This document shows, piece after piece, positions 17,515 through 33,831 of a stretch of 33,831 bases of DNA. The stretch is from Clostridiales bacterium (GTDB lineage: Bacteria > Bacillota > Clostridia > Christensenellales > Aristaeellaceae), in the NCBI GenBank assembly GCA_015056155.1, contig SVGU01000024.1, positions 1-33,831 on the forward strand, in the 5' to 3' direction. Both the position numbers and the translations under genes were made by a program. Position 1 is the first letter of the stretch; each line of letters starts with the position of its first letter. Below the pieces are notes generated by a model. The model was not told where the DNA came from. It worked only from the letters and a program-made list of their open reading frames with translations, and searched no databases.

Positions 17515-17552
17515 CCCGTTCGTCCGCCGTCTGCAACCACTCACACCCGAAA
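17515..17552 (+). promoter_or_regulatory. LytTR-type direct repeats upstream of substrate gene 1
   Basis: Two boxes, CCCGTTCGT (17515-17523) and ACCACTCAC (17536-17544), start 21 bp apart, and the second runs on as ACCCGAAA. LytTR regulators usually bind direct repeats of about 9 bp spaced by two helical turns. The proximal box starts 39 bp before the -35 hexamer, exactly as at the WXG100 operon promoter (22855-22863). The proximal box lacks the central GT, so recognition rests mainly on the shared context. Confidence 0.65.
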
Positions 17553-17574
17553 AGCTGCGTTTCGTCGGGAATTG

Positions 17575-17603
17575 TTGCCGGGAACGGCATTTCCTGATAT
17601 GAT
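17575..17603 (+). promoter_or_regulatory. Promoter of the substrate 1/DUF4176 operon
   Basis: TTGCCG (17575-17580), a 17-bp spacer and TATGAT (17598-17603) lie 23 bp upstream of the GTG start. The -35 is imperfect, as expected for an activator-dependent promoter. Confidence 0.75.
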
Positions 17604-17625
17604 GTAGCCAATGGAGGGATCAATT

Positions 17626-18804
17626 GTGGCAAACACTATTCGATGGGATACCGAATCAATGGAGGAGATCGCCCGGAGGCTGCAGAATCTGAGCCGTGAG
17701 CTCAATTCCTGCCAGAACACCGTCCGCGGGATCGCCAGCCGCATGGATCGTGCCAGCGGCAGCCAGCTCAATTACAACCGTTCCCTGCGCCTGCCCATGT
17801 CCGGATATTATGTGGGCGGCGCCAGCATCCAGCATTGCCTGCGTCAGTACGCCACCGCGCTGGATCGCTATAACTCCATCTCCTCCCAGCTCGCCAGGAA
17901 CCTCCTGCGGGCCTCTCATGAGGTGGAAGAAACCGAGCACACCCTGTCCTCTGCCATCACGCAGTCGGGCACTGCCAGCCCCTTTACCTCGGGCGGCGGC
18001 GCCGCTGCTTCCTGGGGCACCGCGGTCGGCGCGGGCGTGGCCGGTGCGGTCGTCGAACCCGGCTCGGTCGAGGCCGGCGTCTCCGGCATCAGCTGGAAGA
18101 AGCTCGCCCTGGACGCGCTGAGCAAGGCCGGCATCGTCGGAGCGATCGCCAGCAGCCTGCTCGGCCTGGACGGCACGCTCAAGACCACGCTCAAGTCCGT
18201 CGTGAAGATCGGCGGCGCGGTCGCCAAGTGGCGCGGTCTGGAAAAGGTCACGGCGAAGGACCTGTTCGGTCTGGGCCCGTACCTGAAGACCCCGTCCACC
18301 GCCGGCAAGTGGGCCGCCTTTGGCGAGAACTTCAAGTCCGGCTTCAAGGCCGGCATGGCCAACCCCGTCAGCTGGATCACCTCCGGCATCGACAGCTTCT
18401 TCAGCAACTACGAGGAGTTCGGCGGTCAGATCACCGACCGTGCGATTGTTGAATGGGCGATCGAGACCGGCGCAGGCGTAGCGCTGAAGGCCGGCACTAC
18501 GGCGCTGGTCGGCGCGGGCCTGGCAGCGGCCGGCATCGCGGGCGCACCCGCCCTCGTCGTGGGCGCGGCAGGCGCGATCATCTACACCGGCGTCGATGCG
18601 CTGTGGAAGCACACCATCGGCAACGGCAGCTCCCTGACCGAATCCATCGGCCACGCAGCCGGCGAAATCTGGGACGGCGGCAAGAAGGTCGTCAAGGAAG
18701 CCGGCAAGAAGATCGGCAAGGCCGTGAACGGCGCCATGGACTGGCTGGGCGACAAGGTCGGCGGGCTGGTCAGCGGCAAGGGCATCTTCGCCCGCTGGGC
18801 ATAA
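17626..18804 (+). CDS. Putative T7SS substrate 1 with glycine-zipper C-terminus
   Basis: The 392-residue protein has a helical N-terminal domain (about 1-110) that shares RLxxLSREL, Cys29 and a second Cys (71, in QHCLRQ) with substrate 2 at 19940-21292. The C-terminal part has hydrophobic helices and a long Gly/Ala-rich stretch (about 281-325, with motifs such as GAGLAAAGIAG and VVGAAGAIIYTG). It then has amphipathic lysine-rich helices to the end. LXG-type T7SS toxins such as TelE use glycine zippers to form pores, and I infer the same type of activity here. There is no Sec signal. The likely start is GTG at 17626, with GGAGGG 7 bases upstream; an ATG at 17611 overlaps that site. A DUF4176 gene follows by 33 bp. 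Toxicity and target are not proven. Confidence 0.78.
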   Translation: MANTIRWDTESMEEIARRLQNLSRELNSCQNTVRGIASRMDRASGSQLNYNRSLRLPMSGYYVGGASIQHCLRQYATALDRYNSISSQLARNLLRASHEVEETEHTLSSAITQSGTASPFTSGGGAAASWGTAVGAGVAGAVVEPGSVEAGVSGISWKKLALDALSKAGIVGAIASSLLGLDGTLKTTLKSVVKIGGAVAKWRGLEKVTAKDLFGLGPYLKTPSTAGKWAAFGENFKSGFKAGMANPVSWITSGIDSFFSNYEEFGGQITDRAIVEWAIETGAGVALKAGTTALVGAGLAAAGIAGAPALVVGAAGAIIYTGVDALWKHTIGNGSSLTESIGHAAGEIWDGGKKVVKEAGKKIGKAVNGAMDWLGDKVGGLVSGKGIFARWA

Positions 18805-18837
18805 ACAAGGATTGATAATTTGAAGGAGGATATACCT

Positions 18838-19128
18838 ATGTTGATGAATGATGTTCGCCAGCTGCTTCCTATCGGCTCCGTCGTGAAGCTCAAGGGCGCG
18901 GAGAAGTGCCTGATGACCTTCGGCGTCCGCCAGACCGACGTGAAGAGCGGCAAGGAATATGACTACATCGGCGTCATGTACCCCGAAGGAAACCTCGGCG
19001 AGGATCTGCGCTTCATGTTCGACCATGAGGACATCTCCGAGATCATCTACAAGGGCTACGAGAGCGACGAGCTCACTGCCTTCCTGGAGAAGCTGAACAA
19101 CTTCTTCGCCAACAAGGAAGACGCCTGA
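18838..19128 (+). CDS. DUF4176 protein paired with substrate 1
   Basis: The 96-residue protein matches DUF4176: LLPIGSVVKLKG near the start, then DYIGVMYPEGNLGEDL and FDHEDISEII. DUF4176 genes typically lie beside LXG-type T7SS substrates; whether they are chaperones, targeting factors or immunity proteins is unsettled. AGGAGG lies 8 bases upstream of the ATG at 18838. A paralogue (19614-19907) sits beside substrate 2, sharing LLPxGSVVxL, DYxG and PEG. The absence of a hydrophobic segment argues against it being a membrane immunity protein to a pore-former. A terminator follows directly. Confidence 0.85.
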   Translation: MLMNDVRQLLPIGSVVKLKGAEKCLMTFGVRQTDVKSGKEYDYIGVMYPEGNLGEDLRFMFDHEDISEIIYKGYESDELTAFLEKLNNFFANKEDA

Positions 19129-19140
19129 TCCGGATACAGC

Positions 19141-19182
19141 AACGGCTCTGTACCATCCATGCGGTACAGAGCCGTTGTCTTA
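19141..19182 (+). terminator. Terminator of the substrate 1 operon
   Basis: A perfect 14-bp inverted repeat, AACGGCTCTGTACC / GGTACAGAGCCGTT, encloses 8 bases and is followed by GTCTT. Confidence 0.85.
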
Positions 19183-19256
19183 TGTCTGCGGGCTTGGCGG
19201 ACGCCCCCGGTCTGCGCCGCACGCACCGCACCGCCACAAGAAACACACCGCCAAAA

Positions 19257-19562
19257 GGCTCCCTCCCCGAGGGAGCTGTCGCCGCCAGGCGACTGAGGGA
19301 GTGCGCCGCACACTCCACACCACCGCAAGAAGCACACCGCAAAAAAGGCTCCCTCCCCGAGGGAGCTGGCAGCCGCTTGCGGCTGACTGAGGGAGTGCGC
19401 CGCACGCTCCACACCACCGCAAGAAACGCACCACCAAAAGGCTCCCTCCCCGAGGGAGCTGTCGCCGCCAGGCGACTGAGGGAGTGCGCCGCACCGCCAC
19501 AAGAAACGCCCCCCCAAGGCTCCCTCCCCGAGGGAGCTGTCGCCGCCAGGCGACTGAGGGAG
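19257..19562. repeat. Palindromic repeat family 4, four tandem copies between convergent operons
   Basis: Copies of 45-49 bp lie at 19257-19301, 19347-19395, 19440-19484 and 19518-19562, spaced about 78-93 bp. Each is GGCTCCCTCCCCGAGGGAGC, then a second hairpin, then CTGAGGGAG. The second hairpin is GTCGCC-GCCA-GGCGAC in three copies and CAGCCG-CTTG-CGGCTG in the second, so pairing is kept while sequence changes. The first three copies are separated by related text (TGCGCCGCAC, CTCCACACCACCGCAAGAA). Very similar elements are widely dispersed in gut Clostridia, from general knowledge. The gap 19129-19613 holds only this array and two terminators. Confidence 0.9.
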
Positions 19563-19564
19563 CA

Positions 19565-19604
19565 AAAAGGACCCGCACCACAGCGATCTGGTACAGGTCC
19601 TTTT
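19565..19604 (-). terminator. Terminator of the substrate 2/DUF4176 operon
   Basis: On the minus strand AAAAGGACC and GGTCCTTTT form a 9-bp stem around a loop with a further ACCA/TGGT pairing. TTTTTG follows. It is 9 bp past the stop at 19614. Confidence 0.82.
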
Positions 19605-19613
19605 GTGTCCGGG

Positions 19614-19907
19614 TCAGTCCGCAGACTTCTGCTTGCGGTAATCCGCCAGCGCCGTCTCCATCTTCGCCACGAACATCTTCTGGCCGTCTGTCTGGAAACC
19701 GAGGAAGAGCACATCCTCGATCGCCCCGGCGTTGAACACATAGTTCTTGTCGGGCGACTGATGTCCCTCCGGCCACAGGCAGCCGACGTAATCATTCACT
19801 TCTTCCTGCCCCTGCAGGCGCTGTCCATAACCGGTGATCATGATCCGGTGTTCACCCGCAGCCAGACGCACGACGGAACCAAGGGGCAGCAGACCTTCAA
19901 TCTTCAC
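19614..19907 (-). CDS. DUF4176 protein paired with substrate 2
   Basis: The 97-residue protein has the DUF4176 hallmarks GLLPLGSVVRLA, DYVGCLWPEGH and an acidic helix followed by LFLGFQTDG. It is paralogous to the protein at 18838-19128 but clearly diverged, as expected if each partner is matched to its own substrate. The start is a GTG at 19907 with GGGAGG 8 bases upstream. It lies 32 bp after substrate 2 and is the last gene of the WXG100 operon, ending at a strong terminator. Confidence 0.82.
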   Translation of the reverse strand: MKIEGLLPLGSVVRLAAGEHRIMITGYGQRLQGQEEVNDYVGCLWPEGHQSPDKNYVFNAGAIEDVLFLGFQTDGQKMFVAKMETALADYRKQKSAD

Positions 19908-19939
19908 AGTAGGATCCTCCCGTTCTCATTTCTTGGGGA

Positions 19940-21292
19940 TCACATGAAAAAGTTCCATGCGCTCTCGACGAAGCCACAGACGGCGTCCGCAGCGTTGTTC
20001 ACCATCCCGGCCACATCCACTTCAAAGCCGATGCTGCCGCCGACGCCGATGGAGAGACCGATGTCCACCTTCAGCACGCCGTCGTCCATGCCGACCTCCG
20101 CATGACCGCCGATGCCGTAGTTCAGGGATGCGTTGACCGAAGCGTCCACGCCCATCACATTCAGGCCCAGCTCGCCCTCGATCTCGCCTGCAATGGCCTC
20201 CAGCTCCCCGCCTGCATACAGGTTCAGGTCGCCGTCCACGATGCCGATCTTGATCTCGCCCTCCGCAGAAAGCTCACCGGCCGTCGCCGTGACGGTCGAG
20301 GTCAGGTCCACGCCGTCCACGATCTCGTACATGCCCGAAGCGGTGGCTTCGAACACGGATACGGACACGCCCGCATGCACCTCCGCACCGGGGGCGAGCT
20401 CGTAGGTCGTCTTGCCGTCCGGGCCGACCTTGGTCGCATAGATGCCGGCAGAAGCGCCGGCCTCTGCCGAGCCGTTGCCCAGGCCGATATCCCACGACGC
20501 GGTCACATCGCCGTTGGAGCGGCTGTCGCCGAAGGAGAAGATGCTTTCAGAAACGCCCTTCTTCGCGGAGACGGTGAACACCGACAGGCGGTCTGCCAGC
20601 GGGCTGACGCCGTCGCCGTCGCTGTCAAGGTCCCATTCGCCGCTGGAGCCGATGGACATCCAGTCCGGCACCAGCTGATCCAGGCTGTGCACAGGGCTGC
20701 TCTGGATCGCCTCGCGCAGGGCGCTGGGGTCGCCGATCAGCGGCGCGAGCATCGAAAACGCAGAGGGATTCAGCAGTCCGCCCACGCACATGGCGATCGG
20801 GATGCCGCCGATGACCAGCTGCGCAAAGTCCTCGCCGATGCACAGGGCCACATCGCCGTCCGTGATGGTCTCCAGGATGCCGGAGCCGCGGTTGGGGGTG
20901 GGGTTCGGGCTGCAGCCGTCGGCGCCCTGACCGTCGGTGAAGACCGCAGGACGGGACCCGCCCAGCTCCTGCATGGCCAGCTCGGATTCCACGACCTCGA
21001 ACAGGTTCATCGCCTTGCGGATGTTGTCCGCCATGTCGCCGGTGTGGTCGCGCAGCTCGCGGATGGTCTGGCGCAGGCCGCGGATGCAGCTGGAGATCCT
21101 GCCGCTGGGGAGGGACTCGCCGATGGAAGACAGGCGGCTTCCCAGGTGGATCGGCAGCGTGCCGCCGGCCTCCTGCTCCGTGTTGACACGAGAAAGAGAA
21201 GCAGCACAATCCGACAGCTCGCGGGAAAGATCCGTCAGCCGGTTTGTGATCTGCCTATATATATCGGTATTGATATATATCTTATCTGCCAT
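19940..21292 (-). CDS. Putative T7SS substrate 2 with glycine-rich beta-strand C-terminus
   Basis: The 450-residue protein has the same N-terminal domain as substrate 1: NRLTDLSREL at 17-26, Cys29 and Cys69 (SSCIRGLRQ), followed by long helices to about residue 110. The middle contains a hydrophobic, Cys-containing stretch. Residues about 265-425 form repeated alternating strands rich in Gly/Ala/Val (for example ASAGIYATKVG, EVHAGVSVSVF, SAEGEIKIGIVDG, VDIGLSIGVGGSIG), ending in an amphipathic helix. Such strand repeats recur in polymorphic toxin backbones and could shape a pore or fibre, but the function is unknown. No Sec signal. ATG at 21292 with AGAGGAG 7 bases upstream. It lies downstream of the fourth WXG100 gene with a terminator hairpin in between. 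Confidence 0.75.
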   Translation of the reverse strand: MADKIYINTDIYRQITNRLTDLSRELSDCAASLSRVNTEQEAGGTLPIHLGSRLSSIGESLPSGRISSCIRGLRQTIRELRDHTGDMADNIRKAMNLFEVVESELAMQELGGSRPAVFTDGQGADGCSPNPTPNRGSGILETITDGDVALCIGEDFAQLVIGGIPIAMCVGGLLNPSAFSMLAPLIGDPSALREAIQSSPVHSLDQLVPDWMSIGSSGEWDLDSDGDGVSPLADRLSVFTVSAKKGVSESIFSFGDSRSNGDVTASWDIGLGNGSAEAGASAGIYATKVGPDGKTTYELAPGAEVHAGVSVSVFEATASGMYEIVDGVDLTSTVTATAGELSAEGEIKIGIVDGDLNLYAGGELEAIAGEIEGELGLNVMGVDASVNASLNYGIGGHAEVGMDDGVLKVDIGLSIGVGGSIGFEVDVAGMVNNAADAVCGFVESAWNFFM

Positions 21293-21349
21293 ACGTGCAC
21301 TCCTCTTCTCAGCATTGATGCTCTGTAACCCTCAGAGCCTGGATGAAAG

Positions 21350-21391
21350 AAACGGCGAGCAAGGGCCGATAACGATCCTTCCTCGCCGTTT
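21350..21391 (-). terminator. Intra-operon terminator between the WXG100 genes and substrate 2
   Basis: On the minus strand AAACGGCGAG and CTCGCCGTTT make a 10-bp perfect stem with a 22-base loop, then CTTTC. The T tract is interrupted and I find no promoter in the 57 bp before substrate 2. Partial read-through is therefore likely, lowering substrate 2 relative to the WXG100 proteins. Confidence 0.7.
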
Positions 21392-21411
21392 CATAAGCAT
21401 TGCGGAACCGA

Positions 21412-21741
21412 TTAGCCCGCCGCAAAGGGATCGGTGGTATCGGCAGCGGCTTCAAACGACGCGCCGACCTCAGCATTGACTTCCTCGTGGCCCGCGACAA
21501 CCATCTGGATGTCCTTGACGGCCGACTCGATGGTGGCGTCGCTGGTCTTCAGGTTGTTGAACAGCTCGTTGTACTGATTCTTGAAAGCCTCGCTGGCCTC
21601 GCCGTTCCAGGTGGTGTCCAGAGTGAACACGGCGCTGGTCATCTGCAGGTAGGAGTTCTGCAGTTCGGACATGCAGCTATGGAACTGGGATACCGCCTGT
21701 TCAAACGCCTCAACGCTTACATTAATGCGATCGTTAGCCAT
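21412..21741 (-). CDS. WXG100 protein, B-type (copy 2)
   Basis: The 109-residue helical hairpin protein has the turn motif TWNGEAS near residue 44 (a W-x-G). It ends ...DTTDPFAAG, resembling the end QSPFNAG of the gene at 22092-22421. WXG100 proteins are small dimeric substrates or adaptors of EssC-type T7SS. It is fourth of four WXG100 genes spaced 25-36 bp apart and transcribed from 22796-22824. Its neighbour upstream (21776-22066) is the likely heterodimer partner, since only that type carries the YxxxD/E tail. GAAAGGG precedes the ATG. Confidence 0.85.
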   Translation of the reverse strand: MANDRINVSVEAFEQAVSQFHSCMSELQNSYLQMTSAVFTLDTTWNGEASEAFKNQYNELFNNLKTSDATIESAVKDIQMVVAGHEEVNAEVGASFEAAADTTDPFAAG

Positions 21742-21775
21742 GGTGACAACCCTTTCTATCTAAATTTCTCAGATC

Positions 21776-22066
21776 TTACTTTTTGCGAACCAGGGAAGCG
21801 CCCTTCGCGTCCATTTCCTCGTACTTCTCAGCGATCTGATTCATCGCCTGCACGTACTGGGAAACGATCTGGTTCATCTCGTCGTACCACGCCTTGCGCT
21901 GCTCCATACCGGACTGGAACTTGTCGCGGGAATCGCCTTCCCAGATGGACATCAGCTCATCGGCGGCAGCCTTCAGCTTCGCAGCCGCGTCACGGAAGGC
22001 CTCATTCGCCTTGGAAATGTTGCTTGCGGCAGTCCGCAGTTCAGAACACGTTACTTCGATCAACAT
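21776..22066 (-). CDS. WXG100 protein, A-type (copy 2)
   Basis: The 96-residue protein has the turn motif IWEGDSRDKF near residue 42 and, after the second helix, EKYEEMD, a YxxxD signal known from ESX and Ess substrates as an export tag recognised by the ATPase. It resembles the gene at 22458-22745 (AAAxL near the turn, AEKY near the end), showing duplication. It lies third in the WXG100 operon, 25 bp after the B-type gene 22092-22421 and 34 bp before the next B-type gene. Confidence 0.88.
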   Translation of the reverse strand: MLIEVTCSELRTAASNISKANEAFRDAAAKLKAAADELMSIWEGDSRDKFQSGMEQRKAWYDEMNQIVSQYVQAMNQIAEKYEEMDAKGASLVRKK

Positions 22067-22091
22067 GCTACTATCGTCCTTTCGTTATTTA

Positions 22092-22421
22092 TTAGCCAGC
22101 ATTGAAGGGGCTCTGGGTGCCAACTTCCTGGTTTGCGATAACGCCCTTGATGGAGTTCTCGGTCTCGCCGGTCAGCTCGATCATCTCGCTCAGCTCGGTC
22201 ACGGCGTCCTCAAGATTGTTGAAGGAACGAGCGATGTTCACGCCCATAGCGGCGACCTTGCCGGCCATGATGACGAAGGCCTTGCCGGTCCAGTCGGAAC
22301 GGAGCGCTTCGAGGGACTTGGTGAAAGCAGCGTAGCTGTCCTTCAGGGTGGACAGGGCGCCACGGTACTGGTTGATACACTGCTGAAGATCAGCTGTATC
22401 GACGATAATATGATCTGCCAT
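22092..22421 (-). CDS. WXG100 protein, B-type (copy 1)
   Basis: The 109-residue protein starts MADHIIVDTADLQQCINQ and has the turn DWTGKAFVIM near residue 44 (W-x-G) and the tail SPFNAG. It matches the 109-residue B-type gene at 21412-21741 in length and tail. A single Cys lies near residue 15. It follows the A-type gene by 36 bp and is probably its dimer partner. Confidence 0.85.
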   Translation of the reverse strand: MADHIIVDTADLQQCINQYRGALSTLKDSYAAFTKSLEALRSDWTGKAFVIMAGKVAAMGVNIARSFNNLEDAVTELSEMIELTGETENSIKGVIANQEVGTQSPFNAG

Positions 22422-22457
22422 GATTGTATCTCCTTCCTATTTTCATCAATCAATGGA

Positions 22458-22745
22458 TCAGCCGTTGACCTTGCTGGCCAGCTCTTCTTCCTTCTCCTGA
22501 TACTTCTCAGCAGCGTTCAGCACCAGGCTGATGTACTCAGAAGCAACCTGGATCAGCTGGTTGAACCAGTTATCCAGCACGCCCTGCTCCTCGGCGAACG
22601 CGGTCGCGGCGTCGCCCTGCCACTTGCTGCACAGCTCAGCAGCCGCAGCCTTCATCGTCTCACGAGCTTCGTCCAGCTGATCCTGGGCAGCTCTTGCTTC
22701 CTTCGCGTAGCGAATGAGCGCCGAGATAGTTACCAACCAAGTCAT
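22458..22745 (-). CDS. WXG100 protein, A-type (copy 1), first gene of the operon
   Basis: The 95-residue protein has the turn KWQGDAATAF near residue 41 and the tail AEKYQEKEEE, which fits YxxxE. The start at 22745 (MTWLVT) is chosen because the transcript should begin near 22789; a longer in-frame version to 22844 would run through the promoter. The ribosome site is weak (AAAGG 13 bases away). It opens the four-gene A-B-A-B WXG100 block. The promoter has a LytTR-type activator region upstream. Confidence 0.82.
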   Translation of the reverse strand: MTWLVTISALIRYAKEARAAQDQLDEARETMKAAAAELCSKWQGDAATAFAEEQGVLDNWFNQLIQVASEYISLVLNAAEKYQEKEEELASKVNG

Positions 22746-22795
22746 AGATGTAACCCAACCTTTCTTGATTTTGTAGAGGTGAACTCTGTGATTAG

Positions 22796-22824
22796 AATAT
22801 ACTACGAAACACCCGGAGAGTAAA
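22796..22824 (-). promoter_or_regulatory. Promoter of the WXG100/substrate 2 operon
   Basis: TTTACT (22824-22819), a 17-bp spacer and TATATT (22801-22796) lie on the minus strand, 50 bp upstream of the first start. Like the substrate 1 promoter, the -35 is imperfect and a LytTR-type box lies 39 bp upstream of it. Confidence 0.78.
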
Positions 22825-22854
22825 CCATTTCCGATGAATTGCACGATTTCGGGT

Positions 22855-22905
22855 GTGAACGGTCATTTTTGCCTTCTCGAATGGTCATTTCGGGGTGCGA
22901 ACGGC
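22855..22905 (-). promoter_or_regulatory. Three LytTR-type boxes upstream of the WXG100 operon
   Basis: On the minus strand GCCGTTCGC (22905-22897), ACCATTCGA (22885-22877) and ACCGTTCAC (22863-22855) begin 20 and 22 bp apart, about two helical turns. The first and third extend to a longer repeat, CCGTTCRCACCC(C)GAAAT. The third box begins exactly 39 bp before the -35 hexamer. The match to the general LytTR half-site (GTT core with C or A before it and R after) is good. The LytTR protein encoded at 26939-27709 is the natural candidate. Confidence 0.7.
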
Positions 22906-22991
22906 CGATTTTTTCCTCATTTTCCGCCTCCGGATGTCAAAAATTCCGCCATTCCCGCACAGAAAACACATACCGGCCCATTTCCGCCGTA

Positions 22992-23021
22992 ACCGTTCGT
23001 CGGGAAAAAGCGACCGTTCGC
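22992..23021 (+). promoter_or_regulatory. Additional pair of LytTR-type boxes in the opposite orientation
   Basis: ACCGTTCGT (22992-23000) and ACCGTTCGC (23013-23021) start 21 bp apart on the plus strand. No -10/-35 pair lies at the corresponding distance on the plus strand, so they may be auxiliary sites for looping or a silent remnant. Together with 22855-22905 and the terminator at 23057 they account for most of the 375-bp gap 22746-23120. Confidence 0.5.
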
Positions 23022-23056
23022 GAAGTGCGCCTCCCCCGGCGGAAGTCTCCGGACGC

Positions 23057-23098
23057 AAAAGCCTCCCCCCGCCCGGACGGACCGGAACGGGAGGAGGC
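23057..23098 (-). terminator. Terminator of the T7SS machinery operon
   Basis: On the minus strand GCCTCC(TCCCG) and (GGGGGG)GGAGGC pair and are followed by TTTTGC. It lies 22 bp past the stop of the TM-FHA gene. Confidence 0.75.
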
Positions 23099-23120
23099 AG
23101 GAGCATTGGGTTTTGCCGCC

Positions 23121-23690
23121 TCAGGAAATGCGGGTGAAGCGGTAGGTGCGGTCGGCGACCGTGATGGAGGCGTTCTCCAGGAGCTTTTCCTGGGTGAAGG
23201 GCTCCAGACGGCGCACGCCAAGGAAGGTGCCGTTGTTGCTGCTCAGGTCCTCAATGTAGTAGGACTGGCTGTACTTGCGGAACACGATGCGGCAATGCTT
23301 GCCGGAGACCGTCGGGTCGGCGATCACCAGGTCGCAGCTTGCCGAGCGGCCGATGACGAAGACTTCCTTGTCGATCACGGTCTTGTTGTTGCGGCCGTGA
23401 CGGTTGAACACCAGCTGGAAGTTCGGATGGAAGTCGACGTCGTACTCGGTGATCTCGCTCTTCGTCGCGTCGCTGACCTTCTTCTTGACGTTCTGGCGCA
23501 TCTGGGACACTTTTCCGCCCACCGTGTTGCGCAGCTTGGGCCAGCAGGTCCACAGGATGGTGAACACCAGCGCGCTCACCGCAAGGAACAGCAGCCCCAT
23601 CATGGGCGCAATGAGCATGATGAAGATCCCCAGCAGCAGCACAAAGCCGCACACCAGAATCGTCAGGCGCAGGAATGTCTTGCTTTCCAT
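23121..23690 (-). CDS. Membrane-anchored FHA-domain protein
   Basis: The 189-residue protein has two closely spaced hydrophobic spans (about residues 7-28 and 30-50), a basic linker, and a C-terminal FHA domain (about 95-185). The phosphothreonine-binding residues are visible: VIGRSASCDL (GR), VSGKHCR (S..H) and SSNNGTFLG (NG). FHA domains dock phosphothreonine peptides, so it should recruit phosphorylated partners to the membrane on the cytoplasmic side. It is the last gene of the machinery operon, 12 bp after the vWA-like/FHA gene. A dedicated role in secretion is inferred from position only. Confidence 0.9.
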   Translation of the reverse strand: MESKTFLRLTILVCGFVLLLGIFIMLIAPMMGLLFLAVSALVFTILWTCWPKLRNTVGGKVSQMRQNVKKKVSDATKSEITEYDVDFHPNFQLVFNRHGRNNKTVIDKEVFVIGRSASCDLVIADPTVSGKHCRIVFRKYSQSYYIEDLSSNNGTFLGVRRLEPFTQEKLLENASITVADRTYRFTRIS

Positions 23691-26342: not shown

Positions 26343-26356
26343 TTGAATCACGCTCC

Positions 26357-26653
26357 TCAACCACCGATTTTTGCAGCCATGGCTGCGTCAAAGGCTTCCT
26401 GCTTCTCCGCGTAGGTGAACAGCAGGCTCTGGATGGAGTTGAGCGCAGAGGCGATCTTCTCCACATCGCTGCCCAGCTCGGTCAGCATGTCCATCAGCGC
26501 GTCGGCGGTGCTGCCGGCCAGCTCGCTGTCCACGGTGTTCTTCATCGCCCGCACGTTCTGGCGGGAAAGCTCCTGCACCTGCGCCGCCACATTGCGGATG
26601 CTGCGCGCTGCCTGACGGACTTTCGCAGTGTCAACCTCAAAATCTTCGTACAT
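26357..26653 (-). CDS. WXG100-superfamily protein lacking the W-x-G
   Basis: The 98-residue helical protein (MYEDFEVDTAKVRQAARSIR) has the length, register and C-terminal helix of WXG100 proteins (FTYAEKQEAFDAAMAAKIGG), but its turn reads DSELAGSTADAL, with no Trp. It stands among machinery genes between YukD and the vWA-like protein, apart from the A-B-A-B block, so it may be a structural or adaptor protein. AAAGGAG precedes the ATG. The stop is 14 bp before the next gene. Confidence 0.8.
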   Translation of the reverse strand: MYEDFEVDTAKVRQAARSIRNVAAQVQELSRQNVRAMKNTVDSELAGSTADALMDMLTELGSDVEKIASALNSIQSLLFTYAEKQEAFDAAMAAKIGG

Positions 26654-26687: not shown

Positions 26688-26939
26688 TTACAGAATCATC
26701 AGCCTGCTGCTGTCGCGGACGCCGTTCTGGGCAAGCGTCCAGTCCTGCTGCAGAAGAATGGAGCGGTCCAGATCGAACAGTACGATGGACTCCCTGTCAA
26801 AGGCAACGGACAGGTTCACCTGCTCGACCAGCTGGGCGATATCCTGCGTCAGCGAACGGATCGGGACGTGCGCCGGCAGCATGAACTCCGCCACATCCCC
26901 CGTGTTGCCCAGGGTAATCTCGATGATGATGGTTTCCAT
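26688..26939 (-). CDS. yukD: YukD/EsaB ubiquitin-like T7SS protein
   Basis: The 83-residue protein has the small beta-grasp pattern of YukD/EsaB: METIIIEITLGNTGDVAEF, the segment HVPIRSLTQDIAQLV for the helix, and a final strand SSRLMIL. There is no C-terminal Gly-Gly, so it is not conjugated. In Bacillus and Staphylococcus this protein is essential to or regulates secretion. Its ATG overlaps the LytTR stop by one base (TGATG), so the two are translationally coupled. It supports the identity of the whole locus as a T7SS of the Bacillota type. Confidence 0.88.
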   Translation of the reverse strand: METIIIEITLGNTGDVAEFMLPAHVPIRSLTQDIAQLVEQVNLSVAFDRESIVLFDLDRSILLQQDWTLAQNGVRDSSRLMIL

Positions 26940-27709
26940 CAGGCTTCACCTTCTTTCTTGCTTGCATCCTTCTGCGCCATCATGCCGTGGAAGGTCTGGC
27001 GGAAGGAGCGTGCCAGGGGGATCTCCATGCCACTCATCATATGAATGGTCATCGTCTGGAAATCAACGCGCTGGATCAGCCGGGTATTGATGATGCTGCT
27101 GCGGTGGCAGCGGACAAACCGGTCATCCAGCTTGCCGGAGAAGTTTTCCAGACTGTCATAGGTGACGATCACATCCCGGAGGGTGTGGATCTCGATCATC
27201 TTGTTCGCAGCGGTCACAGCGCAGACCTCGTCCAGATTGACCCGGCGGATGGAGGATTTCTCCTTCACGCTGATCCAGACGCCTTCGTCCTCCTGCTTGT
27301 GGATGCTGCGGTAATCATTGAAGATGTCCTTGATGAGGCGGGCGCCCTGCGCGCCGAGGATCGCGTCGGTCACGATCGCCGCCGGCCGCGTGCAGTAGGA
27401 TGCCATGCCCACCATCGTCCGGTTATCCTTGGCGGAATAGATCACGTAGTGATCCCGGTTGTGCTGGATGGCAAGGCGGCCCATCTGCAGGGCGCGGAGG
27501 CTTTCCTGCTCCTTCAGGTCGTCGATGCAGGTGATCAGCAGCAGGATGTCGCTGTGGGCGTCCAGCGCCTTCACCGCATCCTGGTACCGGTCCGTCCGCA
27601 TCTCGACGCGCAGGTATACGCCTGTTTCATCGCTGACGGTCTGGAAGCTCTTCATGATCTGATCGAAAAGGGTATCTGATACACGATACAGCACTGCGGG
27701 CAGTATCAT
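26939..27709 (-). CDS. LytTR-family transcriptional regulator with degenerate receiver domain
   Basis: The 256-residue protein ends in a LytTR DNA-binding domain (about 145-245), with WISVKEKSSIRRVNLDEV, the helix RFVRCHRSSIINTRLI and MEIPLARSFRQTF. The N-terminal 130 residues have a receiver-like pattern but no aspartate pair after the first strand, and the usual phospho-acceptor strand reads DILLLITCIDDL. The Lys site is replaced by RP (CTRPAAI). Phosphorylation is therefore doubtful, and no histidine kinase is nearby. GGAGG lies 7 bases upstream of the ATG at 27709. It sits 23 bp after essC and overlaps yukD by one base, so it is made with the machinery. LytTR-type boxes at two operon promoters of the same locus are its likely targets. 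Confidence 0.9.
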   Translation of the reverse strand: MILPAVLYRVSDTLFDQIMKSFQTVSDETGVYLRVEMRTDRYQDAVKALDAHSDILLLITCIDDLKEQESLRALQMGRLAIQHNRDHYVIYSAKDNRTMVGMASYCTRPAAIVTDAILGAQGARLIKDIFNDYRSIHKQEDEGVWISVKEKSSIRRVNLDEVCAVTAANKMIEIHTLRDVIVTYDSLENFSGKLDDRFVRCHRSSIINTRLIQRVDFQTMTIHMMSGMEIPLARSFRQTFHGMMAQKDASKKEGEA

Positions 27710-27732: not shown

Positions 27733-30700
27733 TCAGTCGTCTTCGGATTCGTCAGCAGGGATCTCCACCCGGGGCAGAACGATATGCGCGGAATCGTCAT
27801 CGGCAATGAGGTATGCCTCGCCGCGCGGGAGTTCGCCGGGCTTCTTCAGGCCCGGGATGATGCTGGCGACCTTGAAGGGATCGCAGTCGAAGGTCACGCC
27901 CTGCAGCATCACGCCGCGGGAGACGCCCAGCATCGTGTTCAGCGGCTCCTTGATCCGGTTGGCCGCGATGTTCTTGCGCTGGATGGTGGCGATGGTGATC
28001 AGGCGGAAGGAAGCGATCTTCTCATCGTCACGCACGCAGAACTTGAGGTAATCCAGCATCGCCTGTTCCTTGGCGTAGCTGGTCATGAACTGGTCGATGT
28101 CGTCGATCAGGATGGCCACGGGCTTGAAGCTCGCCGCGACCTCCTGCTTGCGCTCGTTGCCGAACTTGCGCGCCTCGGTCAGCATGGCCGAGCGGCTGCC
28201 GATCAGCTCCTTGATCTTGCCGAACTGCTCCAGCCAGGCGGCGCTGCCGTAGGTGAAGCTGGCCACCTGGTTCTTGCGGCCCCATTCGGCCAGGTCCTCC
28301 GGACCGACGAGGTAGACCTCGCAGCCCTTCCGGAGCAGCGTGAGCGCCATGGTCTGCAGGAGCGTGGTGCGGCCGGACTTCTTCGGGCCGATGATCAGGC
28401 CGGAATAGAAGGTGCGGAAGTCCACGCTGGCGATGCTGCCCTGCGCCTTGATGTAGCCCAGAGGCAGCTTGCAGGGATCGGCCATGAGGCTGACGGCCTC
28501 GGAGGTCTCCAGCATCCGGGAGATCACGGGCTTCGACGGGATGCGGGCGATACCGGCCGGGCGGTCGCCCTTCCAGCATTCGCTCATCCGGCGGCCCAGC
28601 TCCAGGATCGCGTCGGCGCGCGCCTTGTCCGATTCGACGGTCTCGTACGCGGCCACCTGGATCTCGTACAGGAAGGTCTCCTTCGCTTCCTTGTCCTCCA
28701 CCGCGATCATGCCGCGGCCGGGATACTCGCGGATGCCTCCCCAGTCGGAGCTGACGCGCGCGCTGAGGGCGTCGGCGTAATCGGCGCGCTCATTCTGCTG
28801 CAGGGTGATCGCGCGGGTGAAGGGATGGTACTTCATGGGCAGCTCGTTGCGGTTGAAGACGGTCATGATGAAGAAGATACCCTGGCTGGCGCCGGAGCGG
28901 AGCATGGCGTAGAAGCGCTGCAGCGCCGCATCGCGCTTGCCGTCGTCCCAGTCGCGCAGCTGCTGCATGCGGTCGATGAGCACGACGATGGCGGGGATCT
29001 TCTTGTGATCCGGGGAATTCTCTGCCGAGCGGTTGAACTGGATGTAGTTGTCCGTCGCCAGCTCGCGGAAGAGCTTCTTGCGGCGCTCGCTCTCGGCGTA
29101 GAGCATGTTCATCAGGCGGACCTGCTCGTCCGGCTCCTCCTCGTAGACGATCTCGCCCACATGCGGCAGCGTCTTGAGGCAGTTGAGGACGTGGCTGGTC
29201 AGGGAGAAGGCGTAGATGTTCACCTCGTCGGGCGAATACTGCTGCGCCAGGGAGACCGCGATGGTCTGCAGGGCAGTGGTCTTGCCCGAGCCGGGAAGAC
29301 CAGCCAGGAGGATATTGTGCTGCGCGGTGAAGTCGATCTTCGCGGGCAGGCGCTGCTGGGTGTTGATATCGTCCGCCATGCCGTAGAGAACGGTGAAGTT
29401 GCCATCTTCCTGCTCAGGCCACTTCTCGCCGTCCCACACGGGCTGCTCGAACTCGCTGTGCAGCCGGCTGAGCATGAGCGTGGGATCCATTTCCTTCAGC
29501 CACATCTTCTCCGCCCAGGCGTACTGATGGCGGCGGCAGCATTCGCGGATGTACTCCAGCACCACGTCCAGCTCGGTCTCCTCGGCCACGCCGGGCGCCT
29601 GCTGCTTCTTCTTTTTGCGGAACTTGATGGGCTGGCCGGCCTCGTTGAGGATGCGGGGCTCCTCCTCGGGGCGCAGGGCATCGGGGTTGTAGGTCGAGCC
29701 GGACCAGGAGGTCTGCACCTGCTCGTACACCTCGTCGCTGCCAACGCGGACGTAGCAGCGGCCCATGCCCTTGAGGTAGGCGGCGTCGGGGTGCTTGATC
29801 ATTTCGTTGGAGTCGCCGCGGGAGGCCACGCGCAGACAGATGCGGAAGCGGGTGTTCGCGTCGATCTCGTCGCTGACGGAGTTGCTGGGCTTCTGCGTCG
29901 CCAGCACCAGATGCATGCCCAGGGAACGGCCGACACGGGCCGCCGAGACCAGCTCGGTCATGAACTCGGGCTCTTCCTTCTTCAGCTCGGCGAACTCGTC
30001 GACGATGATGATCAGGTGGCCCAAGGTTTCCTCGGTGGGGTCGGCATTGAAGAGCTTCATGTAGTCGTCGATGTTGTTGACGCCCACGCTCTTGAAGATG
30101 GCCTCGCGGCGCTTGATCTCGCCGCGGATGGAGGCCAGCGCACGGAAGATGGTGCGCGCGCCCTCGGAGGAGTCGATGATGCCGGCCACATGGGGCAGCT
30201 CGCGGAAGCTTTCGGACGTGCCGCCGCCCTTGTAGTCGATCAGGATGAACTGGATCTCGGAGGGGCTGTAGTTCAGCGCCAGCGACATGATAAAGGACTG
30301 GAGCAGAACAGACTTACCGGCGCCCGTGGTACCAGCGATCAGGCCGTGGGGGCCGTGGTTCTTGTCGGAGATATCCAGGATGAAGGGGGCGGAACCGGCC
30401 TTGAGACCCAGGATGGTCTTGATGGACTGCCATGCATGGTTCTCGCTCCAGTTGTGGCAGACGTCGATGTCCTCCACGCGGCGCACGCCGTAGGTCTCCA
30501 GGAACGTGACCAGCGAGGGGATCGCCGTGTCGCCCACCATCTCCTTGATGCGGTAGGGCGCCAGCGCGTTGGCGAAGCTCTGCAGCTGGGTCTGGTCGAC
30601 CGTCTCGAAGCTGACGCCCTGCATGGTGCCGTTGCCGTGGAAGACGGTGCCCAGCTCCGTGCGCGCCTCGATGATCAGGTCGCACTCCTTGGGCAGGGAT

Positions 30701-32436
30701 TCCATCTCGGAGGCCTGCATCACCATCGTGAAGCCCAGGCCCGGCTGGGACAGGTAGCGCAGGATCGGCTGACCCTCCAGCAGCTTGGGATCGGTGACGA
30801 AGAACATGTACCACGGCAGCATGCCGGCCGTTTCGCTCTCCGCCTTGCCGTCCGCCTCTGCGTTCTGCAGGGACTCGGCGCGCACCTTCAGGACATTGTC
30901 GAAGTGCGAGAGCACCTCGTGGATCGCCTCAGGCGTGCACACGGACATGCGCAGCGTGCGGTCGTCGGCGGCGTAGACGTGCTGCAGGGACTTGGTGAAG
31001 CGCCACTGCTCGGCGTTGGGCTCGTCATGGATGACGATGATGCGCACGTCGTGGTAGCTGTGGCTGGCGGCGATCTGCGCCACCATGCTCTGCATCATCC
31101 ACGGAGAGGACGCATTGCCCAGCACGCCGATGATCCGGTGCTCCCGGGGATTGACGATGATGGGCGCGTCGTTCATCATCTGGTAGATGTCCTTGAGGCG
31201 CTGCGGCTCGTGGCGCAGCTGATCATCCACCAGGTTGATGCGCGGCTTGGGGATGGTGATCTCGCAGGGCAGGCGGTGTTCGCCCACGCCCAGGCGGATG
31301 GCCAGGAAGTCGTCATGGTTGGGCAGGCGCTCCCACATGCGGTGGTCGCCGGTCTGGGGCAGGGTCACGCACTCGCTGACCGGGAGGTAGTTGAGGTTGA
31401 GGCGCTTGCGCTCGCGCTCGGTCTCCGCCATCAGCTTCTCTTCGATCTCCGCGTAATACTGCCGGCAGATGTTCTGCCGGTTCGTCTCGCTCAGCTTCGC
31501 TTCCTTGTCGGTGAAGCGGCGGTTCAGCGTGGACCACATCACCGACAGCGCCGAGGAGGTACCGATCATGACCAGGCTCGCGCCCATGCTGCGGCCCATG
31601 ACCAGCGTGGACACCAGCATGGGCATGATCATCGTCATGCTCGGGCCGATGGCCAGCCACACGGGGGTGTGCTTGCCGCGTTCCTTTTCCAGGGGGGCGT
31701 CGATGTTGATCGGCTCGGTGTTGGGCTGCTGCTTCAGGCGGGGCGCGCGGTGGTACTCGCGGGTGACGGGCACATCCTCCGGGGGCGTCAGGTTGGACGC
31801 GACGGCGGAGGCGGGCATGGGCACGCAGTCCTGACGCAGCGTCAGGTCATCCAGCGTGTTGACCGCGAAGAAGTTCGTGCCGACCACCAGACGCAGCGCG
31901 GGCGCGATAAACAGCGTATCGCCGGGGCGCATATCCACGCTGCGCTTGCTCACCCGGCGGCCGTTGACCCAGGAGCCGTTGACAGAGTGATCGGTGTAGA
32001 TGATCCGGCTGCCCTGCACGCTGATGTCGCCGTGGCGGGTGGAGACCATCGGGCGGTTGTAGCGGATGATGGCGTCATCGCCCTTGCCGATGGTCAGCCC
32101 CACGTAGGGGAACATGTACTTGCGCATGACCGTGTTGTCGCGGCCGTAGGCAGTGGGGATCACGGTCAGCTGGCCGTGGCGGTCCGAAACCATCTTCAGC
32201 ACGCCTTCGTTGGTCAGCGGCCGGGTCGCGCCCTGGCCATCGTCCTCCCAGCGGAAGCCCTCGGGCAGGTGCAGCGACCATGCGCCGCCCTCCGAGGTGA
32301 CCGGAAGTGCGGGGCCGTCCGAATCCCCCAGCACGTCGTCAGAGATATCCAGACGACCGGACCAGTTCATCTGTGCCGGAAGCTGATATGACTTGCCCGC
32401 GTGCCGGGCATCGGAGAATATCCAGAGTAAATACAT
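27733..32436 (-). CDS. essC: EssC-type T7SS ATPase (FHA-TM-FtsK/SpoIIIE)
   Basis: The 1567-residue protein is the motor of the secretion system. An N-terminal FHA domain (about 109-182; LTIGKGDDAI, STRHGDIS, SVNGSWVNG) is followed by two transmembrane helices (about 255-300). Three FtsK/SpoIIIE ATPase domains follow, with P-loops GTTGAGKS at 702-709, GLPGSGKT at 1046-1053 and GPKKSGRT at 1350-1357. Domain 1 has a clear Walker B (HLIIIVDEFAEL). EssC is usually about 1480 residues with two FHA domains; here a second one was not identified. The ATG at 32436 is 21 bp after the PP2C stop. The protein should bind WXG100 substrates at domain 3 and drive export. The operon context is tight on both sides. 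Confidence 0.95.
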   Translation of the reverse strand: MYLLWIFSDARHAGKSYQLPAQMNWSGRLDISDDVLGDSDGPALPVTSEGGAWSLHLPEGFRWEDDGQGATRPLTNEGVLKMVSDRHGQLTVIPTAYGRDNTVMRKYMFPYVGLTIGKGDDAIIRYNRPMVSTRHGDISVQGSRIIYTDHSVNGSWVNGRRVSKRSVDMRPGDTLFIAPALRLVVGTNFFAVNTLDDLTLRQDCVPMPASAVASNLTPPEDVPVTREYHRAPRLKQQPNTEPINIDAPLEKERGKHTPVWLAIGPSMTMIMPMLVSTLVMGRSMGASLVMIGTSSALSVMWSTLNRRFTDKEAKLSETNRQNICRQYYAEIEEKLMAETERERKRLNLNYLPVSECVTLPQTGDHRMWERLPNHDDFLAIRLGVGEHRLPCEITIPKPRINLVDDQLRHEPQRLKDIYQMMNDAPIIVNPREHRIIGVLGNASSPWMMQSMVAQIAASHSYHDVRIIVIHDEPNAEQWRFTKSLQHVYAADDRTLRMSVCTPEAIHEVLSHFDNVLKVRAESLQNAEADGKAESETAGMLPWYMFFVTDPKLLEGQPILRYLSQPGLGFTMVMQASEMESLPKECDLIIEARTELGTVFHGNGTMQGVSFETVDQTQLQSFANALAPYRIKEMVGDTAIPSLVTFLETYGVRRVEDIDVCHNWSENHAWQSIKTILGLKAGSAPFILDISDKNHGPHGLIAGTTGAGKSVLLQSFIMSLALNYSPSEIQFILIDYKGGGTSESFRELPHVAGIIDSSEGARTIFRALASIRGEIKRREAIFKSVGVNNIDDYMKLFNADPTEETLGHLIIIVDEFAELKKEEPEFMTELVSAARVGRSLGMHLVLATQKPSNSVSDEIDANTRFRICLRVASRGDSNEMIKHPDAAYLKGMGRCYVRVGSDEVYEQVQTSWSGSTYNPDALRPEEEPRILNEAGQPIKFRKKKKQQAPGVAEETELDVVLEYIRECCRRHQYAWAEKMWLKEMDPTLMLSRLHSEFEQPVWDGEKWPEQEDGNFTVLYGMADDINTQQRLPAKIDFTAQHNILLAGLPGSGKTTALQTIAVSLAQQYSPDEVNIYAFSLTSHVLNCLKTLPHVGEIVYEEEPDEQVRLMNMLYAESERRKKLFRELATDNYIQFNRSAENSPDHKKIPAIVVLIDRMQQLRDWDDGKRDAALQRFYAMLRSGASQGIFFIMTVFNRNELPMKYHPFTRAITLQQNERADYADALSARVSSDWGGIREYPGRGMIAVEDKEAKETFLYEIQVAAYETVESDKARADAILELGRRMSECWKGDRPAGIARIPSKPVISRMLETSEAVSLMADPCKLPLGYIKAQGSIASVDFRTFYSGLIIGPKKSGRTTLLQTMALTLLRKGCEVYLVGPEDLAEWGRKNQVASFTYGSAAWLEQFGKIKELIGSRSAMLTEARKFGNERKQEVAASFKPVAILIDDIDQFMTSYAKEQAMLDYLKFCVRDDEKIASFRLITIATIQRKNIAANRIKEPLNTMLGVSRGVMLQGVTFDCDPFKVASIIPGLKKPGELPRGEAYLIADDDSAHIVLPRVEIPADESEDD

Positions 32437-32457
32437 CTTCAGTCCCTCGCTTTTCGT

Positions 32458-33471
32458 TTATAGCAGGCTGGTATCGGTATCCTCAGTCTTCTTGGGCGCA
32501 GGTGCGGACTTTTCCGCCTTGTCCGCGGCCTGCTTGGTGAGGCTGGTGGTGAACCAGGAGGGCTTATCCTTCTGTGCGGGCTTTGCGGCTGCGGGCCTTG
32601 CGACGTCCACCTGCTCCACCACGCCGGGGAACATCCCCGCCGTCTGGGCCGGCAGCGGCAGCCGCGGCTTGAACGCACCGTAATCCAGAATGATGCAGGT
32701 GGTGTTGTCCTTGCCGCCCAGCTCCAGCGCGGTCATGACCAGATGGCGCGCGCAGGACTTGGGCGATTCGATCGTCGCCAGATGCTCCTCGATGGCGGCG
32801 TTGGACATCAGGTCGCACAGGCCGTCCGAGCAGAGCATGAGGCGGTCGCCGGGCTGCAGCGCCGTCTTGACATAATACATCAGCTGGGAGGGGCGCTCGC
32901 CGTCGGGCATGCCGAGGTACTGGGTGATCACGTTGTTCTTGGGGGACTTGCGCGCCTGCTCAGCGGTGAGGAGGCCCTGGCGCACCAGATCGCCCACGAT
33001 GGAGTGGTCCATGGAGAGCTGCTTGATGCGGTGATCACGCAGGAGGTACACGCGGCTGTCGCCCACGTTGGCGACGTGGCATTCATCGCCCCGGAGCAGC
33101 ACGACCGCCATGGTCGTTCCCTGCGTATCGACCTGATGCGAGCGCCCGTCCTCCACGATGCGGGCGTTCGTCTTCAGTGCATAGTCATTGAGGAGCTTCT
33201 CCACATCGCCGCTCTTCATGCTCATGTACACGGACTGGATGGACTGCGCAGCGAGGGCTGAGGCACGCTCGCCCCAGTCGCCGCCGCCCATGCCGTCGAA
33301 AACGCCGTACAGCTGGCACTTGCTGTTGAAGCTGTGCTCGATGACCGCGCCTTCATTCATGTTGTTCAGCGACATGTAGTTGCCGTTGAAGAAGAAGTTG
33401 TCCTCGTTGTTTGACCGCACACAGCCCTTATGGCAGACAACGGCGGCTTTTACCGTTTGCTTGCTGGCCAT
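32458..33471 (-). CDS. PP2C-family Ser/Thr protein phosphatase
   Basis: The 337-residue protein has all PP2C motifs: RSNNED (19-24), DGMGGG (59-64), GTTMAVV, VGDSRVYLL, a metal Asp in SDGLCD and KDNTTCII. These hold two Mn2+/Mg2+ ions. The last 70 residues are a Pro/Ala/Lys-rich tail with no hydrophobic segment, possibly a docking tail. It removes phosphates from Ser/Thr, so it would antagonise the FHA interactions of EssC and the two other FHA proteins in this operon. The AAGGATG-like site is 10 bases before the ATG. The kinase that would oppose it is not in the window. Confidence 0.93.
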   Translation of the reverse strand: MASKQTVKAAVVCHKGCVRSNNEDNFFFNGNYMSLNNMNEGAVIEHSFNSKCQLYGVFDGMGGGDWGERASALAAQSIQSVYMSMKSGDVEKLLNDYALKTNARIVEDGRSHQVDTQGTTMAVVLLRGDECHVANVGDSRVYLLRDHRIKQLSMDHSIVGDLVRQGLLTAEQARKSPKNNVITQYLGMPDGERPSQLMYYVKTALQPGDRLMLCSDGLCDLMSNAAIEEHLATIESPKSCARHLVMTALELGGKDNTTCIILDYGAFKPRLPLPAQTAGMFPGVVEQVDVARPAAAKPAQKDKPSWFTTSLTKQAADKAEKSAPAPKKTEDTDTSLL

Positions 33472-33507
33472 TGGTTGATCATCCTTTCTGCTTATATGCG
33501 GTGGGGG

Positions 33508-33831
33508 TTAACCGTCGCCTTCGGTGGGAGCAGGATCAACGGGGTCATTACCAAGATCAGAGCTACCTGTTTCAGCACCATCACCAGTGCCGTCAGTGCC
33601 ACCACCATTGCCGCTGCCAGTGCCGCCACCAGCGCCGCCGCCAAGGCCGCCAAGACCGCCAAGGCCGCCAAGGCCGCTGCCAGTGCCGTCAGTGCTGCCA
33701 CCATTGCCGCTGCCAGCGCCGCCGCCAGTGCCGCCGCCAGTGCCGTCAGTGCCGCCACCATTGCCGCCGCCAGCGCCGCTACCAGCGCCGCCACCAGTGC
33801 CGCCGCCAAGGCCGCCAAGACCGCCAAGGCC
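33508..33831 (-). CDS. Glycine-rich protein, C-terminal part (5' end cut off)
   Basis: The frame read from the right edge gives 107 residues to a TAA at 33510-33508. It is almost wholly Gly with Leu, Thr, Ala, Asn, Asp and Ser in GGLGG, GGGTGG and GNGGxTDGTG repeats. It ends with an ordinary acidic sequence, GAETGSSDLGNDPVDPAPTEGDG. That sensible end and the TAA 36 bp before the PP2C start make this frame more likely than the Ala-rich and Arg/Trp-rich alternatives. It is probably the first visible gene of the machinery operon. What precedes the repeat (a kinase, an EssB-like or another FHA protein) is outside the window. Confidence 0.55.
   Translation of the reverse strand, partial: GLGGLGGLGGGTGGGAGSGAGGGNGGGTDGTGGGTGGGAGSGNGGSTDGTGSGLGGLGGLGGLGGGAGGGTGSGNGGGTDGTGDGAETGSSDLGNDPVDPAPTEGDG

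Follow-up and report, generated by a model that had tools for sequence, protein, structure and literature searches.

Type VII secretion systems (T7SS) in which EssB is lacking have already been published as subtypes T7SSc to T7SSj, set in place of the EssA/EssB/EsaA type, defined by EssC trees and gene neighbourhoods, and in several cases carrying kinases, PPM phosphatases and FHA proteins (PMC11217815). T7SSe, T7SSf and T7SSj have a phosphatase and DUF6382-FHA proteins, and T7SSi, from Vallitalea, pairs an EssC that bears FHA with a LytR-like regulator (TsiN) and keeps its WXG genes next to its substrates (PMC11217815). Because these subtypes are known, the general claim of a T7SS without EssB is not new. 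Here we describe a T7SS locus on contig SVGU01000024.1 of a Clostridiales bacterium (Aristaeellaceae), analysed over the entire contig of 33831 nucleotides (the window; contig C67 of a genome, G000, of 158 contigs that is 73.9% complete). The locus fits no published EssB-less subtype exactly: it combines features of T7SSi with features of T7SSe and T7SSj, and no DUF6382 was found. With a probability of roughly two in three, we place it in a clade of T7SS without EssB and EsaA, from uncultured Clostridia, many of them of animal guts, that would use a phospho-signalling module and activate its cargo genes through a LytTR regulator.

The window has both general marks of a T7SS, an FtsK-type EssC/EccC motor and WXG100 genes beside it. 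EssC (TsxC; 27733-32436, minus strand) scores 911.5 bits with the curated TIGR03928 model against a cut-off of 778.4, and combines a single recognised FHA domain (residues 115-175), a transmembrane (TM) segment and three FtsK-type ATPase stretches. A first-pass annotation made from the DNA letters had proposed this motor, and with it YukD, a PP2C phosphatase, a LytTR regulator and two FHA membrane proteins; all were borne out by scores above the respective model cut-offs, YukD (YukD/EsaB ubiquitin-like protein, TsxB; 26688-26939, minus strand) with PF08817 at 33.8 bits against 27. These genes belong to a co-directional minus-strand run from 33831 down to 19614, from a Gly-rich tail at the contig edge through a DUF4176 gene.

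EssC (TIGR03928, E<=1e-60) is present in 23 of the 150 family genomes sampled, among which 13 have LytTR adjoining EssC, nine have other gene sets and one (G037) was left unassigned; across the phylum, 19 of 398 genomes have EssC by this model. A search for Vallitalea-type loci in the order and class of genome G456 gave no further EssC (one of five and one of 97 genomes, G456 itself in both cases). A contig scan for named EssC loci gave at least 80, the best 80 of which were used; the closest of these to the window EssC are 22 loci (L147-L167 and L174) at 36-53% identity, all from metagenome-assembled or uncultured sources, several with record titles naming rumen, rectum, caecum, duodenum or jejunum, and the remainder of the best 80 are at most 33% identical. 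Among plasmid records all 610 EssC matches fall below 60% identity, and the best 20 of the 610 reach at most 30.5%.

The EssC dataset held 110 proteins, from 28 loci with LytTR adjacent to the motor and 82 other EssC loci, after removal of duplicates of named records (L060, L062, L069, L070, L071, L073, L075), of L162 (called on the wrong strand), of L083 of G037 (EssC uncalled) and of L066 (EssC partial). In a FastTree phylogeny of 68 of the 110, the 28 LytTR-adjacent proteins form one group with L084 as sole intruder, and IQ-TREE places the LytTR rows on one side of a branch both with 45 rows (19 LytTR rows, support 100) and with 32 rows (12 LytTR rows, support 100/100); both IQ-TREE runs were made without L084 and under LG+G4 without mixture, and several rows were odd in residue make-up. 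The T7SSb references, the DUF6382-bearing loci L186 (Clostridium akagii), L183 and L231 (G544), and the Paenibacillus loci all lie outside this clade, and L234 (G456) is a distant member, first to branch. The intruder L084 is a second, divergent EssC of G146 (1126 aa), without LytTR and on a long branch. In 27 of the 28 loci LytTR directly follows EssC, but partly by construction, as these were picked for a LytTR gene within two genes of EssC; independent support for the pairing is the single EssC clade.

The first-pass annotation had also found EssB and EsaA unrecognisable, and the model searches agree. EssB (PF10140) has no match in the window's own genome nor in any of the 150 family genomes, 85 of which are >=90% complete and <=5% contaminated. 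In 21 further genomes it exceeds its cut-off in four T7SSb controls only, beside EssC, and the 17 non-controls give just weak matches below the cut-off in G291 (away from EssC) and in Clostridium akagii, neither of which is in the clade. EsaA (TIGR03929) likewise scores in all four T7SSb controls and in none of the 22 genomes that are not T7SSb controls. The locus is thus supported as a T7SS lacking EssB and EsaA, as far as these models can detect them. It resembles the T7SSb of S. aureus (Ess) and B. subtilis (Yuk) in its FHA-bearing EssC, YukD/EsaB, WXG100 proteins, candidate long substrates with WXG partners and DUF4176, and differs from them not only in the two missing components but also in the EssC FHA domain, where the residues that contact phospho-threonine (S..H and NG) are retained by most of the 19 clade proteins compared and not by the three T7SSb proteins compared. 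T7SSb EssC is described as lacking the phospho-threonine binding site (PMC11217815).

The regulator (26939-27709, minus strand) carries a LytTR domain (PF04397, 68.6 bits) and no recognisable receiver domain. All 19 family members scanned have the LytTR domain, none of them matches Response_reg (E<=0.1), and the phospho-acceptor position is not Asp (by eye, 25 sequences). If the LytR-like protein of the published account is a LytTR protein, the window shares with T7SSi a regulator beside an FHA-bearing EssC, and it also shares the N-terminal position of that FHA domain, a YukD-like protein and WXG genes beside substrates (PMC11217815). The clade might accordingly be read as an outlying member of T7SSi, with the kinase, phosphatase and FHA genes as local additions; LytTR adjoins EssC in the clade, the WXG genes stand in substrate cassettes, and a conserved protein of about 170 aa, whose gene separates LytTR from YukD in 15 of 28 loci including the distant L234, could be the EspG-like TsiG. 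That protein, however, has no EspG match by sequence and was found neither in the window, where no EspG-like component was recognised, nor in L147-L151. In the accessible part of the account, moreover, a separate FHA component is named for T7SSe, T7SSf and T7SSj only, no phosphatase is described for T7SSi and its phospho-threonine motif is called poorly conserved (PMC11217815), whereas the window encodes PP2C and two membrane FHA proteins, a kinase probably belongs to the locus, and the EssC motif is largely kept in this clade. We therefore regard membership of T7SSi as unlikely, though it deserves to be kept in mind.

The phospho-signalling genes of the window comprise the PP2C/PPM Ser/Thr phosphatase (32458-33471, minus strand; PF00481, 61.1 bits), with motifs DGMGG, GDSR, SDGL and GKDN, and two FHA membrane proteins. 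One of these, which we call vFHA (23703-26360, minus strand; FHA 46.5 bits), has a signal segment, a vWA-like and repeat-containing exterior, a TM segment and a cytoplasmic FHA domain; the other, sFHA (23121-23690, minus strand; FHA 62.9 bits), has an N-terminal membrane segment (hydrophobic 3-51) followed by FHA. Of the 28 LytTR-adjacent loci, 26 encode a membrane FHA protein no more than six genes away from EssC, the two exceptions having EssC at a contig end; seven of the 82 other EssC loci do so, a count lowered by the shortness of many control contigs.

As called, vFHA is 885 aa long, and a downstream ATG near 26342 is a likelier start. The vWA-like exterior proposed by the first-pass annotation gains support from vFHA-family profiles, which match 8s05_A (E 1.8e-7), which we take to be a vWA protein, and integrin I-domains (E 0.002). 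Its peptidoglycan-binding part fared less well: the Pfam scan of the window vFHA itself reports neither vWA nor peptidoglycan-binding families, and peptidoglycan binding passes the Pfam cut-off in the relatives from L057 and L058 only. A metal-site-like D-x-S-x-S (by eye) is kept in the L057 relative and not in the window, so metal-dependent binding by the window vFHA is doubtful. Matches above 80 bits occur in seven genomes, five of which have EssC (E<=1e-60), compared with 23 of 150 overall (hypergeometric p 0.001). The plain 885-aa query 'matches' in 127 of 150 family genomes, which we discarded as mostly low-complexity linkers, judged by the matched stretch.

Two relatives, L147 and L148, have the window gene order with one addition, a kinase-TM-immunoglobulin (Ig) protein between PP2C and EssC. 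This arrangement recalls T7SSe and T7SSj, as do the PPM phosphatase (component F of T7SSe, T7SSf and T7SSj), a separate FHA component, large envelope-spanning proteins, a conserved phospho-threonine motif and probably a kinase (PMC11217815), component D, which in our genome lies on the probably neighbouring contig C56. The locus could then be a system of that type, with kinase D, phosphatase F, envelope-spanning I and FHA protein J, in which single components were lost or replaced; the Ig-like exterior of the kinases that adjoin PP2C and EssC in L147 and L148 fits such an origin, and so do large proteins with a signal-like N-terminus and a C-terminal TM segment near kinase and PP2C in G061 and G146. 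Yet DUF6382, the mark of TseJ, TsfJ and TsjJ, was not found in the window's own genome at 73.9% completeness, and a home-made DUF6382 model gave five matches, all in L183, L186 and L231 and none in LytTR-clade loci; the window EssC belongs to a different clade from these DUF6382-bearing loci. The window has LytTR, whereas no LytR-like protein is described for T7SSe or T7SSj in the accessible part of the account (PMC11217815). We judge this origin improbable.

Two side observations concern kinases elsewhere. Other EssC types of the family (L067:7450-18078, L072, L078, L079, L081) have TM kinases at or near EssC, and EssB was not found in their genomes. The window's own genome encodes another membrane kinase (L088:10555-14220), with a BspA-type leucine-rich-repeat exterior (PF13306, 447 bits).

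The window ends on the right within a Gly-rich coding repeat, part of an edge-cut C-terminal tail (33508-33831, minus strand), and the first-pass annotation had allowed that the missing parts might lie just beyond. The edge probably leads not to EssB but into contig C56 of the same genome, and the tail is probably the end of a kinase-N-lobe-like membrane protein encoded there. C56 ends in a 2300-aa Ser/Thr kinase open reading frame with Lys, HRD and DFG, after which another runs off the contig within a Gly-rich repeat; nine of 321 20-mers of the window edge occur in this C56 tail, three further stretches of the genome contain none of them, and no 25-mer is common to edge and tail. In G050 a relative of the C56 N-lobe protein lies directly upstream of PP2C and downstream of a relative of the C56 kinase, and in G034 (L056:424-1842) a kinase-N-lobe-like domain is fused directly to a PP2C phosphatase. 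The N-terminus of the N-lobe protein has a zinc-ribbon-like stretch, then a kinase N-lobe-like stretch that has lost the Gly loop and catalytic Lys (by eye), then a TM segment at 191-214. Pfam reports no kinase family in it; its link to kinases rests on its similarity to the C56 kinase (E 3e-6) and the weak match of its family to structures of the type VI kinase PpkA (E 0.0014).

New in this analysis is a 30-bp LytTR-type direct-repeat box with a -10 element at 31 bp. In the stretch that separates sFHA from the first WXG gene of the substrate cassette, the window has in common with five relatives a 9-bp repeat, 12 bp, a second 9-bp repeat, exactly 31 bp and a -10 hexamer. The box emerged from comparison of these relatives; a scan of the window with a LytTR consensus gave no repeat pair. 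In the window, box 1 lies at 22833-22862 (minus strand) with TATATT at 22796-22801, and box 2 at 17537-17566 (plus strand) with TATGAT at 17598-17603. Several boxes in the dataset fall within over-long called starts. In the window both boxes stand before a likelier gene start: WXG100 protein 1, called from 22844, most likely begins at an ATG at 22745, past box 1, the -10 and a ribosome-binding site, and candidate substrate 2, called from 17611, has a GTG at 17626 that follows a ribosome-binding site and fits box 2.

Each of the six founding sites, when left out of the matrix, ranks first among the 40,134-67,604 positions of its own locus. The first matrix excludes the -10, although the founding sites were anchored with it, and in the 22 clade loci outside the matrix it gives 16 matches above 20 bits in 11 loci, 15 of them with a -10 at 31 bp, where Markov shuffles predict 0.2 matches; these loci are not all independent, L157, L158 and L167 being near copies. 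The 82 other EssC loci (1.44 Mb) contain two box matches and none with a -10. Altogether 22 of 24 sites, and 16 of the 18 non-founding ones, have the -10 at 31 bp; any other spacing between 20 and 44 gives 0-6 of 24. A second matrix, built from the found sites and the -10 and hence partly circular, gives boxes in 19 of the 28 loci with scores of 26-51.5, the best control reaching 14.2 and the partial locus L066 24.8. In 18 of the 19 box-bearing loci a box precedes a WXG gene; the L234 box precedes a 527-aa gene, window box 2 stands ahead of substrate 2, and of the two L155 boxes one is followed by no called gene. No box among those found precedes an EssC, PP2C or kinase gene.

Published LytTR sites consist of two 9-11-nt repeats set 11-13 nt apart, without a sequence in common (PMC4847170). 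In S. mutans promoters of LytTR regulatory systems such as BrsR, 12 bp part the 9-bp direct repeats, and 8 bp, the -35 of 6 bp and 17 bp, 31 bp in all, lead to the -10 (PMC6193735). The boxes of the clade have this layout, with imperfect repeats. The BrsR-type promoters drive autoregulation and bacteriocin genes (PMC6193735), whereas here the boxes stand before T7SS substrate cassettes and the regulator is encoded beside EssC. Boxes stand on the cargo cassettes and not on the machine genes examined, and the regulator is a member of the motor operon; activation of cargo transcription by LytTR is the simplest model.

We propose that EssC would act as motor with YukD and the WXG100 proteins as core partners, roles assigned by family, and that the phospho-signalling module would stand in place of EssB and EsaA. 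The membrane kinase with its large exterior and the N-lobe-like membrane protein, both on the probably adjoining contig, would be part of this module; the kinase is predicted to phosphorylate threonine, on which the FHA domains of the two membrane proteins and of EssC could dock, with PP2C resetting the state, and outside contact or the condition of the envelope may thereby gate assembly. LytTR, encoded just downstream of EssC, is predicted to bind the 9-12-9 direct-repeat boxes and to activate the WXG and substrate cassettes rather than the machine genes, so that cargo expression would come under the control of the machine's own regulator; secretion of the WXG proteins and cargo is likewise a prediction from sequence.

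The threonine-phosphorylation pathway of type VI secretion consists of PpkA, PppA and Fha. It too surrounds a secretion machine with a kinase, FHA proteins and a phosphatase of the PP2C type; that machine and its envelope are unrelated, and the likeness is one of analogy only. With this qualification, the phosphatase and FHA set and the probable kinase suggest phospho-threonine gating as known for type VI secretion. What the clade contributes is an EssC lineage, well supported in the trees, in which a regulator gene adjoins that of the motor and a conserved DNA box indicates the cargo genes. This box is a simple handle for finding substrates in uncultured gut bacteria, and the coupling of T7SS machine and cargo expression becomes directly testable.

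The first-pass annotation went further and suggested a distinct T7SS subtype. That the locus has no exact published match stands; lack of EssB is not by itself distinctive, given T7SSc to T7SSj (PMC11217815). We found no published account of this EssC/LytTR/FHA arrangement among the matches listed in the literature searched, which left most subscription journals outside. The fuller proposal, of a new subtype beyond T7SSc-j in uncultured gut and rumen Clostridia, in which envelope sensing by kinase, N-lobe protein, PP2C and FHA proteins replaces EssB, EsaA and perhaps EssA, and a receiver-less LytTR switches on the 9-12-9-box substrate cassettes once the machine is assembled or triggered, is tentative, and we think it somewhat more apt to fail than to hold.

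Several observations weigh against a LytTR-activated, phospho-gated clade. Conservation of the extra genes with essC, which the first-pass annotation had made a test, holds for FHA and LytTR; PP2C was seen in only 12 and a Ser/Thr kinase in 10 of the 28 fetched stretches, counts that are lower bounds because flank lengths differ, and the stretch fetched for L150 showed neither. HLD and DWG take the place of HRD and DFG in the kinases of L147 and L148. In G059 (L058:1-14509) a kinase, N-lobe protein, PP2C, vFHA and sFHA accompany an EssC of another clade, with no LytTR, so the signalling kit and the motor lineage are not strictly tied. The C56-C67 join is based on repeat similarity and synteny, not on reads, and the N-lobe protein was rejected as an EssB relative (hhalign probability 0.5%), being similar in topology alone. 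No box above the best control was found in nine of the 28 loci (L052, L074, L076, L080, L153, L154, L156, L165, L174), although L076, L080 and L174 have WXG genes in reach; the box halves agree at 4.6 of nine places on average (control offset 2.8), and the pairing of LytTR with the box is suggested by co-occurrence only.

These last points would also suit a box that is the site of some other regulator, with the LytTR protein acting elsewhere, since the repeats are imperfect and nine LytTR loci are boxless. Such a regulator would have to account for the complete lack of a box with a -10 in the 82 other EssC loci and for a 9-12-9 spacing and 31-bp distance that match LytTR promoters (PMC6193735, PMC4847170), and we give it little credence beside activation by LytTR. 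That this is an ordinary T7SSb, short of EssA, EssB and EsaA only because the genome is incomplete and the contig ends inside the operon, is very improbable. The absence of EssB and EsaA from the family genomes and non-control genomes above already refutes it for these two genes, within the sensitivity of the models, and an EssC that falls outside the T7SSb branch is at odds with it.

Genes were called with a home-made caller based on codon scoring, in which starts and small genes can be wrong; it recovers YukD in 20 and WXG genes in 21 of the 28 LytTR-adjacent loci. Five WXG100-type proteins had been annotated in the window, and four exceed the Pfam cut-off (PF06013): a protein within the machine operon, candidate TsxA (26357-26653, minus strand; 29.8 bits), and, downstream of box 1 and also on the minus strand, proteins 1 (22458-22745, 32.8 bits), 3 (21776-22066, 49.1 bits) and 4 (21412-21741, 38 bits). 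The fifth, WXG100-like protein 2 (22092-22421, minus strand), falls slightly short at 25.5 against 27.3 bits. Candidate long substrate 1 (19940-21292, minus strand; 450 aa) has no Pfam family above cut-off and is followed by a DUF4176 gene (19614-19907, minus strand; PF13780, 84.4 bits), of a family often found among T7SS genes (PMC9600955). Candidate long substrate 2 (17626-18804; weak TIGR03930 match, E 0.014) and its own DUF4176 gene (18820-19128; PF13780, 82.1 bits) occupy the plus strand from 17626 to 19128.

The C-terminus of substrate 1 is Gly-rich and beta-repeat-like, alignable in five relatives at about 0.31-0.38 identity and better conserved than the middle of the protein, in contrast to polymorphic toxins, whose ends vary. 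An 89-bp tandem repeat in four copies (19213-19562), with an internal palindrome (by eye), lies between the two DUF4176 genes, and at 7429-7602 a 94-bp unit is repeated 1.9 times with 87% matches.

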